Source of the DNA: a virus
Direction: 5' to 3' (one strand)
DNA length: 29,985 nucleotides
IMG/VR virus record: IMGVR_UViG_3300042564_001036
Coordinates: 1 to 29,985 of that record
How positions within the stretch are numbered: position 1 is the first letter of the stretch; each line of letters starts with the position of its first letter. The position numbers and the translations under genes were made by a program. Shown piece by piece: positions 2,703 to 6,968 of this stretch. The notes under the pieces are model-generated. The model was not told the origin of the DNA. It worked only from the letters and a program-made list of their open reading frames with translations, and ran no database searches.

Positions 2703-2959
2703 TTAGGTGTAAATTTAATAGGATGTGATATTTCATTTCCATTAAAGTCTAATAGTTTGCCGTTCATTTCAAAGTGAACCTCCATGTGTTTATTCTTATA
2801 GTTCTGAATCATTAGCTTTATTTTGTCTTGAACATCTTCAATGGAGAGAAACTCTCCATATCCGATGTCTTGCCACTCTGTGAATTCGTTGAACTTATTG
2901 ATAAACCTACGCTTGAGTATAAACTTAGAATGGGAGGTCGTTGCTTTCTTTCTCGGCAT
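2699..2959 (-). CDS. Hypothetical basic early protein, 86 aa
   Basis: A basic protein starting MPRKKATTSHSKFILKRR and containing EWQDIGYGEFLSIEDVQDKI, which reads like a short beta segment followed by a helix. The Arg/Lys-rich start could bind nucleic acid, but no family is recognised. It overlaps the C-terminal end of the upstream SSB-like gene by 35 bases in another frame, and its stop overlaps the start of the small membrane gene. Confidence 0.45.
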   Translation of the reverse strand: MPRKKATTSHSKFILKRRFINKFNEFTEWQDIGYGEFLSIEDVQDKIKLMIQNYKNKHMEVHFEMNGKLLDFNGNEISHPIKFTPK

Positions 2960-3239
2960 ACTGAGGTTTAGATTGATGTGCTTGCTTTTTATCTACTACC
3001 ATTGCTGGTTTACCATCAGACCAAAATACTTTTCCTGATCCTGTCCAGAACTTCTGTTTTTTAGCCTCTCTGTCCTCTTTTGTTTGTGAGACATAGGACT
3101 GAACATTCTGACCATAATCGTTTGCCTCATCGTTCATGGAGATAGTCAAAGACACTCCCTTAAGGCCCTTTGCCTTAACTGTGTTTAATAGGGTTTCTAG
3201 TGTTTCCTGCTTTAGGAAGATTTCTGATAAATTTGCCAT
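2925..3239 (-). CDS. Putative ssDNA-binding-like phage protein
   Basis: A 104-residue protein with a helical start (MANLSEIFLKQETLETLLNT), a beta-rich middle (GVSLTISMNDEANDYGQNV, then SGKVFWSDGKP) and a charged, probably disordered tail ending ESNDLPF. The acidic-hydrophobic tip resembles the DDIPF tip by which bacterial SSB recruits partner proteins. The beta-rich middle could be an OB-like fold, but that is inference. It sits in the replication operon next to a nuclease gene. A second protein here (3777-3998) also ends DLPF. Confidence 0.45.
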   Translation of the reverse strand: MANLSEIFLKQETLETLLNTVKAKGLKGVSLTISMNDEANDYGQNVQSYVSQTKEDREAKKQKFWTGSGKVFWSDGKPAMVVDKKQAHQSKPQYAEKESNDLPF

Positions 3240-3776: not shown

Positions 3777-3998
3777 TTAAAAAGGAAGATCAAAAGCCTC
3801 TAAATGCAACACAGGAGTCTTGTAGTCTGTACCAAACCTAGATAAGTAACCAAATGCAAGTATTCTATTTGCTTCTCTTGTCTTTAGCCAAATTCCTTGC
3901 GTGTAGGTTTTATCATAGTCACCAGGATTTACCTCCATGTACTTATCCCAAAATACCTCAAATGGGATTTCTGATACTTCGTCTAGTGCTTCAATCAT
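3777..3998 (-). CDS. Small replication-module protein ending DLPF, 73 aa
   Basis: The core EIPFEVFWDKYMEVNPGDY, then W-LKTREANRILAFGYLSRF, follows the pattern F-W-x2-Y ... W-x-L-x5-R-x2-A-x3-Y seen at the ends of many phage replication accessory proteins in Bacteroidota and Gram-positive phages; exact function unknown. The last residues, LEAFDLPF, resemble an SSB-type tip. It overlaps the primase-helicase stop by four bases (ATGA), which supports a role beside that enzyme. Confidence 0.5.
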   Translation of the reverse strand: MIEALDEVSEIPFEVFWDKYMEVNPGDYDKTYTQGIWLKTREANRILAFGYLSRFGTDYKTPVLHLEAFDLPF

Positions 3999-6202
3999 TT
4001 CTTTAAGTGTTTATAAATAGTGGTTCTACTTACATTTAGTAATTCTGCTAATTCAGAGCGGTTAAAATCAGGGATGGTTTTATTAATCATCTCGATTTTC
4101 TTTTCTATTGACTCATTTTTCATCGACCTAATTATTTCACTAAGCTCATTAGATTCCAAGCTACTTACCTTAATCTTCTTAGACATAGCAATGAAGTAGT
4201 TGCTTAACTTCTCTGCCTTCAGCAATGATTCCTTAGTAACAAAGTCAAAGTCCTTTCCTGTCTCAAATGACCAAAGCGTATTAATTAACAGAGCAAATCT
4301 AGGTACATAAGCCTTTTGCTTACTCAACATCGATTTCACATATTCCGAGATGTCATCAGAGTTCTGCAAGTCTGTGATATTGTTAAATATCCTCTCCCAC
4401 TCAATATCTGATTGGCTATCAAATCTAATGATTCGACTCTCAATCTCACCAAACTTATTGTACTGCAAAACCTGATTTCTAACAAGGTTATAGAATTGAC
4501 TTATGTAAGCCTCGTACCAATCTAATATTTCTTGGTCAATCGAGTTCTTGTTATAATGCTCAATTTCCTTGTCTGGATAACTTACAAGCAATCGATCTAA
4601 GAATCCATTGTCTTTGTTTTCCATAGTGGATATCTGCGAGAATATTCCAGGCTGAATTCCTCCTAGTACAGGAATCAATGGACTTGCTACAAAGCTACTT
4701 TTCGCTGACTTTCTAGTAAGAATCGCTGCTTGGTTTGACCAGCAAGACAGCCAAAACTCGAGATCAGAACCAGGCTTGTACTTATTCATGTCCTTGATCC
4801 ACCCGTTCAACTCATCCTTAAATACTGCAATCCCTACTTGATTTTCCTCGTGCAAATCCGCCAAGGCTTCTACGGTAATATCATTTACAATCAACTGCTT
4901 TCTCACTGGCTCCCTAACTTCCTCAACATCCTTTTTTTCCTTTGCAGTCAATCGCTCGTATTCCTTGTACTTTTTATACTCGTTCTGAAAGTGCTTAATC
5001 TCAAAGCTATTCTTCTTAGCAATCGGGAATATGATTGCGTTTATACTAGGCGTCTTTCCTAGACCCGCCTTTCCTATCAAGCCAATCCAAATGTTGCAAG
5101 ATTCTCTCCATCCCGTTTTTACCTCTACCTTGCAAGCGTTACCAATGCAAAGAGACAGAAGCCAAAGTAAGGAAGAACCCATATAATCAATAGAATGATT
5201 AAGTGTTTTCTGATTTAACAGAATATAACTCTGTATTGACTCTGGAAACACATCAATTGGAAATATTAAATCCTCCTTTGGAACATCAATTTTTTCTATC
5301 TCTACTTTTCGAATCTTGCGCTCACCATATCCTTCTTTATACAGTTCTTTAGCAGCAATTGAAAAATCACCATTAAAGTATTTGTAGGCATAAATACTGA
5401 AAGGAGTTAAAGGTGTCTCATGAGGGTAAATCGTGGCCGTAGTGAAGAGATAACACAATCCAGTGTCCTTGTATATAAATCCATGCAAGGCGTCCTTAGA
5501 ATTAGTTTTTCTTATTACTATGCGGTCGGTCAAATGCTTTACTGCGGTAAACTCATTTGAAATCAAGTCCAATACTTTGTTTCTCTGATTGTAATCTTCC
5601 CAAGGAGTCAATCCGCTATACTCTGTATTTTCAACCTTGACTTCCACCTTGGCTTCATCGTAGTGAAAATATCGGCATAAGCTAAACAGAATATCTCTTT
5701 CTTCCTCGGTAATCTCTTGGATTTGCTCGTAGGACATTTCAGATACCTGATTATCGTAAATGTAAATGTATCCTCCTGTTCCCCTAGTTTCAATCAAGGC
5801 TTGAGAATGGCCCTTTAGTGTCGCAAGCTTTCTGTTTCCCTCTACCTTAGAGCATCTATAAATAATATGATATCCTGAGTTTATAGTTTTATAAATGACA
5901 AACTTTCTCTCAAAGTCATCTATGTGATCAGAAATAAAAGATACGAACTCACTCCAGAACTTTTTTCCTTCTTGAATTGTAGGAAATACCTTTAAGTCTA
6001 CATCAATACATTCAACGTCATAAAATCCTGTTATAATTCCATAACCTTTGGTCTTGTATTCTAGCTTCTCTAATTCGGATTTTTCTATCTTTTTTGTCTG
6101 GTACTCTTTCCATAAAATCAAAGGCTTCTTACCCTCCGATATTGGCATTACACTGAATCCTGAGTTCAGTAAGTTAATTGCTCTTCCTAGTGTTACGTTC
6201 AT
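3995..6202 (-). CDS. Bifunctional primase-polymerase / DUF3987 helicase
   Basis: A 735-residue replication enzyme. Residues 1-180 form a PrimPol (AEP) domain with the metal-binding DVD at 67-69 (ECIDVDLK), SGYHIIYR (109-116) and ETRGTGGYIY (138-147). Residues about 320-650 form a DUF3987 helicase-like ATPase with Walker A GKAGLGKT (377-384) and a Walker B-like IAVFKDELNGW (458-468). The last 23 residues (NRSELAELLNVSRTTIYKHL) form a helix-turn-helix, so the protein may bind DNA at the origin. It should prime and unwind phage DNA. It begins the promoter-proximal part of a leftward transcription unit: a palindrome, a G9 tract and an iteron-like array lie immediately upstream. Confidence 0.85.
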   Translation of the reverse strand: MNVTLGRAINLLNSGFSVMPISEGKKPLILWKEYQTKKIEKSELEKLEYKTKGYGIITGFYDVECIDVDLKVFPTIQEGKKFWSEFVSFISDHIDDFERKFVIYKTINSGYHIIYRCSKVEGNRKLATLKGHSQALIETRGTGGYIYIYDNQVSEMSYEQIQEITEEERDILFSLCRYFHYDEAKVEVKVENTEYSGLTPWEDYNQRNKVLDLISNEFTAVKHLTDRIVIRKTNSKDALHGFIYKDTGLCYLFTTATIYPHETPLTPFSIYAYKYFNGDFSIAAKELYKEGYGERKIRKVEIEKIDVPKEDLIFPIDVFPESIQSYILLNQKTLNHSIDYMGSSLLWLLSLCIGNACKVEVKTGWRESCNIWIGLIGKAGLGKTPSINAIIFPIAKKNSFEIKHFQNEYKKYKEYERLTAKEKKDVEEVREPVRKQLIVNDITVEALADLHEENQVGIAVFKDELNGWIKDMNKYKPGSDLEFWLSCWSNQAAILTRKSAKSSFVASPLIPVLGGIQPGIFSQISTMENKDNGFLDRLLVSYPDKEIEHYNKNSIDQEILDWYEAYISQFYNLVRNQVLQYNKFGEIESRIIRFDSQSDIEWERIFNNITDLQNSDDISEYVKSMLSKQKAYVPRFALLINTLWSFETGKDFDFVTKESLLKAEKLSNYFIAMSKKIKVSSLESNELSEIIRSMKNESIEKKIEMINKTIPDFNRSELAELLNVSRTTIYKHLKK

Positions 6203-6212
6203 TTTTGTGTTT

Positions 6213-6226
6213 TACAAATGTTTGAA
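6213..6226. promoter_or_regulatory. Palindromic operator-like site (TACAAATGTTTGAA)
   Basis: One mismatch from the palindrome TACAAANNTTTGTA, which occurs three times in the divergent region at 11717-12004. It lies 11 bases upstream of the primase-helicase ATG, within the leader. Confidence 0.5.
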
Positions 6227-6232
6227 AAAAAA

Positions 6233-6246
6233 GGGGGGGGGTAGGG
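6233..6246. repeat. G9-TA-GGG tract, copy 2
   Basis: Eight As, then nine Gs, TA and GGG on the plus strand; identical in core to the tract at 3760. It lies in the leader of the primase-helicase gene, between the iteron array and the ATG. Confidence 0.7.
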
Positions 6247-6262
6247 TCATTTTTAGCAAAAA

Positions 6263-6533
6263 AGTGTACACAAGTTTACACTTAGTTTACACCTAGTGTA
6301 AACCCCCTAAAAGTGCCAATACGTTTAAATTAAGGCGATTTTAGGCTGTTTTTTGACCTAGGTTTACAAGTTTACACTTTTTTTTAGAATGTATTTTTTT
6401 TGACTAGTGAAAATTTATTTTTTTTCATTTTTGTCAAAAAGTGTTCAAAGTGTTCACTTATTGCGATTGGAGCCAGTGGAGGCCGATTTTGGTTTACACT
6501 TTAGTGTACACTTAGTGTAAACTAGTGTACACC
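6263..6533. repeat. Helically phased AGTGTACACT-like site clusters; candidate origin or operator
   Basis: Most of the 319-base gap at 6203-6521 consists of this. Cluster A has four sites starting at 6263 (AGTGTACAC), 6273 (AGTTTACACT), 6284 (AGTTTACACC) and 6295 (AGTGTAAAC). Cluster B has four at 6491 (GGTTTACACT), 6503 (AGTGTACACT), 6514 (AGTGTAAAC) and 6524 (AGTGTACACC). Extra copies lie at 6369 (AGTTTACACT), 6440 and 6449 (AGTGTTCACT). Spacing inside clusters is 10-12 bp, one helical turn, so proteins would line up on one face. The middle is AT-rich with T8-T9 runs. Position between replication genes suggests an origin or a multi-site operator; cluster B runs into the end of the HTH gene. 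Confidence 0.7.
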
Positions 6534-6968
6534 TTCCTTCTTTGCTTTTCTGACCCAATGTGAGACTTTATTGTATTCTAAATTCAATTCGTTGGCAATG
6601 TCGCAAGTCCTTCTTTTTTCCTCTACCATACGCTCTATTTTTTTAACAACATTTATCGTTAAGGGCTTAATTCGTCTTTGTTCTGTGAGTTTTATAATCT
6701 CACATAAATGATGGTATTTTACACCAGTCATTGCCATAATTTCTTTATAAGTAAAACCTTTCTTATAAAAATCAATAACTTGATCCGCATACTTCATGTG
6801 AGAGCAAGTATTTTTAGCTCTTTCATTTGTTAGCAAATATTCCTTGTAGATAAAATTATTTACTAAGTGTTTACTGATATTTAGAAAAGTGGCAATATTC
6901 TTATTCATTACTTTAAGTTTATAAAGCCTAACTATTTCGTCTTTCTGTTCTTGTGTTAATGATGTCAT
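6522..6968 (-). CDS. Three-HTH DNA-binding protein; candidate binder of the adjacent array
   Basis: A 148-residue basic protein built from three successive helix-turn-helix-like units: residues 5-42 (EIVRLYKLKVMNKNIATFLN), 60-95 (VIDFYKKGFTYKEIMAMTGV) and 103-143 (RTCDIANELNLEYNKVSHWV). Tandem HTHs resemble resolvase/Hin-type and sigma-factor-like DNA-binding domains without a catalytic domain. It could bind the repeated AGTGTACACT sites that begin at its own 3' end and extend toward the primase-helicase gene, acting as replication initiator or autoregulator; this is inference from position. Its start overlaps the stop of the upstream gene. Confidence 0.6.
   Translation of the reverse strand: MTSLTQEQKDEIVRLYKLKVMNKNIATFLNISKHLVNNFIYKEYLLTNERAKNTCSHMKYADQVIDFYKKGFTYKEIMAMTGVKYHHLCEIIKLTEQRRIKPLTINVVKKIERMVEEKRRTCDIANELNLEYNKVSHWVRKAKKEGVH

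Follow-up and report, generated by a model that had tools for sequence, protein, structure and literature searches.

In SaPI/PICI elements, an AT-rich region has a set of iterons on each side, and these iterons are bound by the C-terminal domain of Rep, apparently as two hexamers (PMC7581432, PMC6092414). This organization of ori has been described as unique among known bacterial replicons (PMC6092414). A related combination of functions is found in the alpha protein of P4, which in the description given by PMC4234260 joins a primase, a helicase, and a winged-helix domain binding the ori repeats in one protein. In contrast to these iteron systems, pRN1 has a stem-loop origin without iterons, for which no specific binding was detected (PMC4234260). 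For PrimPol-PV1 proteins fused to DUF3987, the passages of PMC5862659 dealing with this fusion predict that DUF3987 is a helicase and that the C-terminal winged helix (WH) recognizes origins. No report of a cognate origin or cognate sites for Prim-Pol/DUF3987 proteins was found in a literature search that left out many subscription papers.

Here, we analyzed a 29,985-nucleotide stretch of viral DNA (IMG/VR record IMGVR_UViG_3300042564_001036; referred to as the window), in which a cluster of short repeats lies beside a primase-helicase gene (Table 1). The original prediction that region 6263-6533 could be the phage replication origin is supported by our computational results; it is very likely that the region is the origin and that its iterons are bound by the C-terminal helix-turn-helix (HTH) of the phage's own primase-helicase.

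Table 1. Features of the proposed origin and initiator in the window
Feature	Position	Strand	Content	Remarks
Proposed initiator gene	3995..6202	-	735 aa: Prim-Pol + DUF3987 (MCM-like predicted fold) + C-terminal HTH
Recognition helix	3998-4030	-	Residues 725-735, SRTTIYKHLKK	Co-varies with iteron sequence
C-terminal HTH of primase-helicase	3998..4108	-	Residues 699-735
DUF3987 domain	4175..5191	-	Residues 338-676	Invariant Walker A (G382 K383 T384) and Walker B (D463 E464)
Prim-Pol (archaeo-eukaryotic primase) domain	5720..6178	-	Residues 9-161	DxD (D67, D69) invariant in 63 lineages
Cluster D	6263..6304		Four iterons (6263, 6273, 6284, 6295)	Inverted copy of cluster A
Cluster C	6361..6378		Two iterons, 6362-6369 and 6369-6378
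Central A+T-rich segment	6379..6439		T7-T8 runs, 85% A+T	Proposed DNA unwinding element
Cluster B	6440..6458		Two diverged iterons, AGTGTTCAAA and AGTGTTCACT	Relatives retain as GTGAACACTTTGAACAC
Cluster A	6491..6533		Four iterons (6491, 6503, 6514, 6524), 10-12 bp apart	Conserved in relatives
148-aa protein	6522..6968	-	Three predicted HTH units	Accessory, clade-specific

Iteron array in the window

The eight sites previously noted in the two outer clusters were recovered at exactly the same positions, in steps of 10-12 bp. When up to 2 mismatches were allowed, the palindromic form of the site, AGTGTACACT, matched 18 times in the window (10.6 expected; 18 reached in 0 of 100 shuffles), and 10 of the 18 matches were located inside 6263-6533. 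As none of 60 order-1 Markov samples contained even a two-site run with 10-12 bp spacing, the two four-site runs cannot be attributed to chance. The copies between the outer clusters had been taken for single ones but are pairs, at 6440/6449 (AGTGTTCAAAGTGTTCACT) and 6362/6369 (GTTTACAAGTTTACAC), and the array layout is therefore 4-2-2-4, with 12 sites in total over approximately 270 bp. In cluster B, the lineage matrix scored the site at 6450 but not the one at 6441; the window matrix counted a weak match at 6476, and the second cluster B site was assigned to 6441 by eye. Each outer cluster is an inverted copy of the other (arms 6261-6292 and 6504-6535, 88% complementary), and cluster A overlaps the stop codon and 3' end of the 148-aa gene. 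The consensus iteron of the window is aaGTGTAAAC. A perfect palindrome does occur as a form of the site but is inessential, as the unit is asymmetric in most relatives (GTGTAAAC and variants).

GC skew had been suggested as a check for the origin. Its minimum is near 9 kb and not at the array; however, the skew tracks gene strand and is thus uninformative. Matches to a Bacteroidota promoter consensus in the window were at chance level and so did not settle the host. The spacer between clusters A and B (6459-6490, GATTGGAGCCAGTGGAGGCCGATTTT) is near-invariant in the clade of the window and GC-richer than its surroundings; it might be a host factor site or a promoter. Just 5' of the primase start, at 6224-6250, an A run precedes a G run and TAGGG; this element is present as CCCTACCCCCCC in some close relatives and absent from others.

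Distribution and geometry of the arrays

Among IMG/VR loci, about 80 whose primases share 75-98% identity with that of the window retain the entire arrangement, upstream of the primase gene. In these close relatives, the stop codon of the three-HTH gene, where this gene was read, lies inside the first cluster. Distant relatives with primases 42-51% identical were found by scanning for the array pattern. Their arrays mostly lie 3' of the primase gene, and the first site frequently falls on its stop codon. Alignment-based searches yielded a set of 350 complete primases, which fall into 63 lineages with <80% identity between them; many of the contigs are fragments. In 54 of these 63 lineages, a de novo repeat search with no assumed motif detected an array next to the gene on one side only; at the threshold used, 1% of 688 same-locus control windows scored as positive. 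With four further lineages in which the array lies 0.5-0.8 kb upstream, arrays are present at 58 of 63 PrimPol-DUF3987 genes; no convincing array was found in three (L399, L414, and L432).

The iteron itself differs by lineage. Arrays of GTGTAAAC are confined to some lineages, and the iterons of others include GTGTAAAG, GTGTAACC, GTGTAACA, GTGTGAAA, GTGTGCAA, GTGCGAAC, GTTTAAAA, GTTCAAAA, and more. In larger records of relatives, exact copies of AGTGTAMAC occur mostly at the array locus (e.g., 10 of 11 in G008). Site spacing is conserved in related phages, as the original prediction implied, with neighbors most often 9-12 bp apart across lineages. Cluster starts are likewise similar, typically near 0, 75, 150, and 210-230 bp; in some lineages with upstream arrays (L318 and L396), extra sites were observed outside the four clusters.

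Downstream arrays contain a mean of 12.8 sites (most commonly 12 and 14). At 100-140 bp from the gene end, they have few sites, and the A+T content there is 86-90% versus about 70%. The half-arrays are separated by a gap of ~55 bp with a median A+T content of 89%, compared to 70% for the loci. Across the family, the median number of sites to each side of the AT-richest gap is 6, and the window has the same 6 and 6 division. The natural reading is that six sites on either side of a melting site would leave room for two hexamers. A filament on one DNA face had been proposed previously from the one-turn spacing, which is itself supported; this model is a poorer description than two groups of approximately six sites around an AT-rich gap, a layout that fits two hexamers.

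Several similar repeats were encountered elsewhere. An array of GTGTACAC with the same 4-cluster type of layout (3-2-2-4) is present at 2317-2645 of L174, a contig without a recognizable Prim-Pol/DUF3987 gene, and L243 has a similar array at 803-970. Searching bacterial genomes for the array pattern gave 19 scattered matches without relatives of the primase or the 148-aa protein; some adjoin tyrosine-recombinase-like genes and others lie within coding repeats, and they were set aside as a different phenomenon. In the Bacteroidota genomes L245, L253, and L257, GTTTACAC/GTGTACAC triplets are located at the starts of tyrosine-recombinase-like genes with no primase relative nearby. Chromosomal DUF3987 proteins, which were left out of the analysis as their open frames were not always resolved, had no nearby array of this kind except in L508. 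There, a chromosomal DUF3987 gene whose product has a different C terminus is closely followed on its 3' side by seven copies of AAGGACCA (2847-3011), which possibly represent another origin of the primase-adjacent array kind. Human fecal phage records and Javan191 encode DUF3987-like proteins with a different C terminus and have no array.

Initiators often repress their own genes, and the array could in principle be bound by the primase HTH as an autoregulatory operator only, with no origin at the site. In the 51 lineages analyzed for array side, the window and 22 others have the array upstream (5') of the primase gene, as an operator would be. In the remaining 28, however, it is downstream (3') with the same four-cluster layout, and an operator would need no AT-rich center between equal half-arrays. 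An operator function alone is therefore unlikely, but upstream arrays could double as an operator, and autoregulation may exist besides the origin role.

The 148-aa protein

The original prediction pointed to the 148-aa three-HTH protein as the initiator, coating the array as a filament. Its gene adjoins the array in the clade of the window, where the gene end overlaps cluster A, and its three predicted HTH units resemble those of paired-type DNA binders. However, just 4 of the 63 lineages yielded homologues, compared to 58 of 63 with arrays, and the candidate was rejected on this distribution. Lineages without a homologue keep the same motif and geometry, and an hmmsearch gave no real match at the loci with distant arrays. 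Between close relatives, the protein varies from 82% down to 52% identity while the sites remain alike. The protein had no match in known phages, and Foldseek with its predicted model returned weak multi-HTH matches only. From these sequence comparisons, the 148-aa protein is probably not the initiator, and a filament formed by it is very unlikely to account for the array.

Primase-helicase

The adjacent gene encodes the proposed initiator. DUF3987 was detected by Pfam in the window primase (E value, 2e-52) and in all 63 lineages, and a recognizable C-terminal HTH helix is present in all 350 complete primases. Known phages gave only partial matches to the primase, and a sequence profile search of solved structures gave no relevant match. 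In the predicted model (mean pLDDT, 87.5), the Prim-Pol domain has a fold like that of pRN1 Orf904 (1rni; Z of about 15 over residues 1-182). The predicted motor domain has an MCM-like AAA+ fold (Z, 15-17 over residues 317-678; root mean square deviation, 3.6-4 Å); this likeness is one of predicted fold, at about 12% identity. The part C-terminal to the motor is modeled as a long helix followed by a three-helix HTH, with residues 726-734 forming the last helix. Two small proteins encoded nearby, at 2925-3239 and 3777-3998, both end in DLPF, which is like the C-terminal tip of single-strand binding proteins.

Covariation of iteron and recognition helix

The iteron sequence follows the recognition helix of the primase-helicase. 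Motifs were found and registered from DNA alone, with helix residues numbered h1-h8 (SRTTIYKH in the window) and motif positions 1-10 (aaGTGTAAAC). Arg at h2 occurred with G5 in 40 of 40 cases and Leu, Val, or Ile with T5 in 9 of 9; at h3, Arg occurred with G7 in 9 of 11 and other residues with A7 in 38 of 40; at h7, Arg occurred with C9 in 11 of 12 and Asn with A9 in 18 of 18. None of 1,000 permutations reproduced any of the three associations (h2-b5, h3-b7, and h7-b9). These residue-base rules are based on about 50 lineages with a few exceptions (L388 and L319 lack G despite Arg at h3; b9 was mispredicted in L360, L590, and L535), and the helix of the window is consistent with its own motif. 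While similarity of the motif was uncorrelated with that of the protein body (r = -0.05), helix and motif remained associated given the protein body (partial Mantel, r = 0.36; 0 of 2,000 permutations). Parsimony on the body tree required 6 changes for h2, 6 for b5, and 7 for both jointly, compared to at least 11 with shuffled labels.

The rules were also used for prediction. For nine lineages without a first-pass array, the motif was predicted from the helix, and the predicted motif was found in L329 (11 copies of GTTCAAAA), L394 (10 copies of GTTTAAAA), and L425 (6 copies of GTGTAAAG). In L406, GTGTGACA was found, in agreement with the h3 and h7 rules but not with the specific motif written down; the prediction for L315 was partially correct, and that for L360 was wrong at b9. 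The other three of the nine were L399, L414, and L432, with no convincing array. In a second set, the rules were noted before analysis of seven new lineages obtained from two further scans. An array was present in 6 of the 7, with b5 correct in 6 of 6, b7 in 6 of 6, and b9 in 4 of 6. Thus, out-of-sample predictions mostly held.

Covariation could also arise without direct contact if neighboring sequences recombine jointly, as the codons of the HTH sit right beside the array in lineages of the downstream type and a single exchange would carry both. However, the association was present in upstream-only as well as downstream-only subsets (h3-b7 being weaker downstream, 37 of 2,000 permutations), and it persists in upstream arrays, where the helix codons are about 2.2 kb away. 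Furthermore, the same helix in separate lineages, also on different sides of the gene, mostly goes with the same motif: all 7 lineages with SLQMIYKY have GTTTAAAA, and all 4 with SRQQIINL have GTGTAAAG. Joint recombination is therefore a highly improbable explanation. Partition and packaging sites can also have clustered short repeats, but a site of this type for another phage protein is barely conceivable here, as the arrays accompany the primase gene, whichever side they lie on, and the motif tracks its helix.

Proposed mechanism

The array, the constancy of its geometry, its linkage to the primase gene, and its covariation with the helix come directly from the computation; how an origin bound by the primase-helicase might function is suggested by fold and precedent. 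The twelve short iterons would act as two half-arrays of about six flanking an AT-rich unwinding element. They would be bound by the C-terminal HTH of the primase-helicase encoded alongside, with one DUF3987 helicase hexamer gathered per half-array. The pair of hexamers would then open the AT-rich center and move apart, giving a bidirectional start, with priming carried out by the Prim-Pol domain. A more specific version, which we put forward tentatively as somewhat less than an even chance, is that DUF3987 forms an MCM-like self-loading double hexamer whose twelve C-terminal HTHs occupy the 6 + 6 array around the melting site and whose pairing with the origin is rapidly re-targeted via approximately three residues.

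Comparison with known systems and implications

As in the SaPI/PICI Rep-ori (and SCCmec Cch2-ori), short iterons in two sets with an AT-rich middle lie beside a helicase gene, here that of the proposed initiator. SaPI/PICI Rep is a self-loading helicase that binds through its C-terminal domain, to which the C-terminal HTH co-varying with the sites would correspond here. However, the SaPI/PICI helicases belong to the DUF927 or Primase_Cterm/D5 families rather than DUF3987, and their ori is directly 3' of rep, whereas it is 5' in the window and 3' in 28 of 51 lineages. PICIs are also satellites, while the window encodes its own large terminase subunit and long open reading frames whose order resembles that of head and tail genes. 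The system thus falls outside the SaPI/PICI type by its helicase family, by the side of the gene on which the origin lies in the window, and by gene content unlike that of a satellite, and the PICI ori organization appears to be found also in a PrimPol-DUF3987 phage family.

Similar to P4 alpha, the primase, helicase, and DNA-binding domains are in one protein, with ori binding here suggested by covariation. P4 alpha has a bacterial-type Toprim primase and a winged helix, in contrast to the Prim-Pol, DUF3987, and tri-helical HTH of the window. The closest solved Prim-Pol fold is that of pRN1 Orf904, which likewise combines Prim-Pol, a helicase, and a C-terminal DNA-binding domain (a winged helix) with a gene-adjacent origin but has an SF3 helicase in place of DUF3987 and a stem-loop in place of an iteron array. 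The Prim-Pol/DUF3987 proteins treated in PMC5862659 have the same order of Prim-Pol, DUF3987, and C-terminal HTH/WH as the window primase; the passages on these proteins describe no cognate sites, whereas here sites and a residue-to-base pattern are available. The AAA+ motor fold of MCM-type helicases is shared by the predicted DUF3987 model. Iteron plasmids of the RepA/TrfA type also have clustered repeats by an AT-rich segment; their iterons are 17-22 bp, whereas the unit here measures about 8-10 bp and recurs every 10-12 bp, and, unlike in these plasmids, the proposed initiator is itself a helicase and primase. By analogy, the proposed mechanism belongs to an already known class, comparable to SaPI/PICI Rep-ori and P4 alpha-ori. 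The "new type of initiator" of the original prediction is thus not wholly new (PMC7581432, PMC6092414, PMC4234260).

Overall, a PICI-like origin layout is found in a phage with its own packaging gene, and an MCM-like fold is proposed for DUF3987 from the predicted model. About 60 natural initiator-origin pairs of differing specificity can be read from sequence alone, each amenable to swaps of a few residues or bases. If the helix rules are true, R726L (or SLQM for SRTT) would shift preference from GTGTAAAC to GTTTAAAA, while T727R would favor GTGTGAAC and K731R would favor GTGTAACA. If the double-hexamer reading of DUF3987 is also true, many mutually exclusive origin specificities would exist within one phage family.
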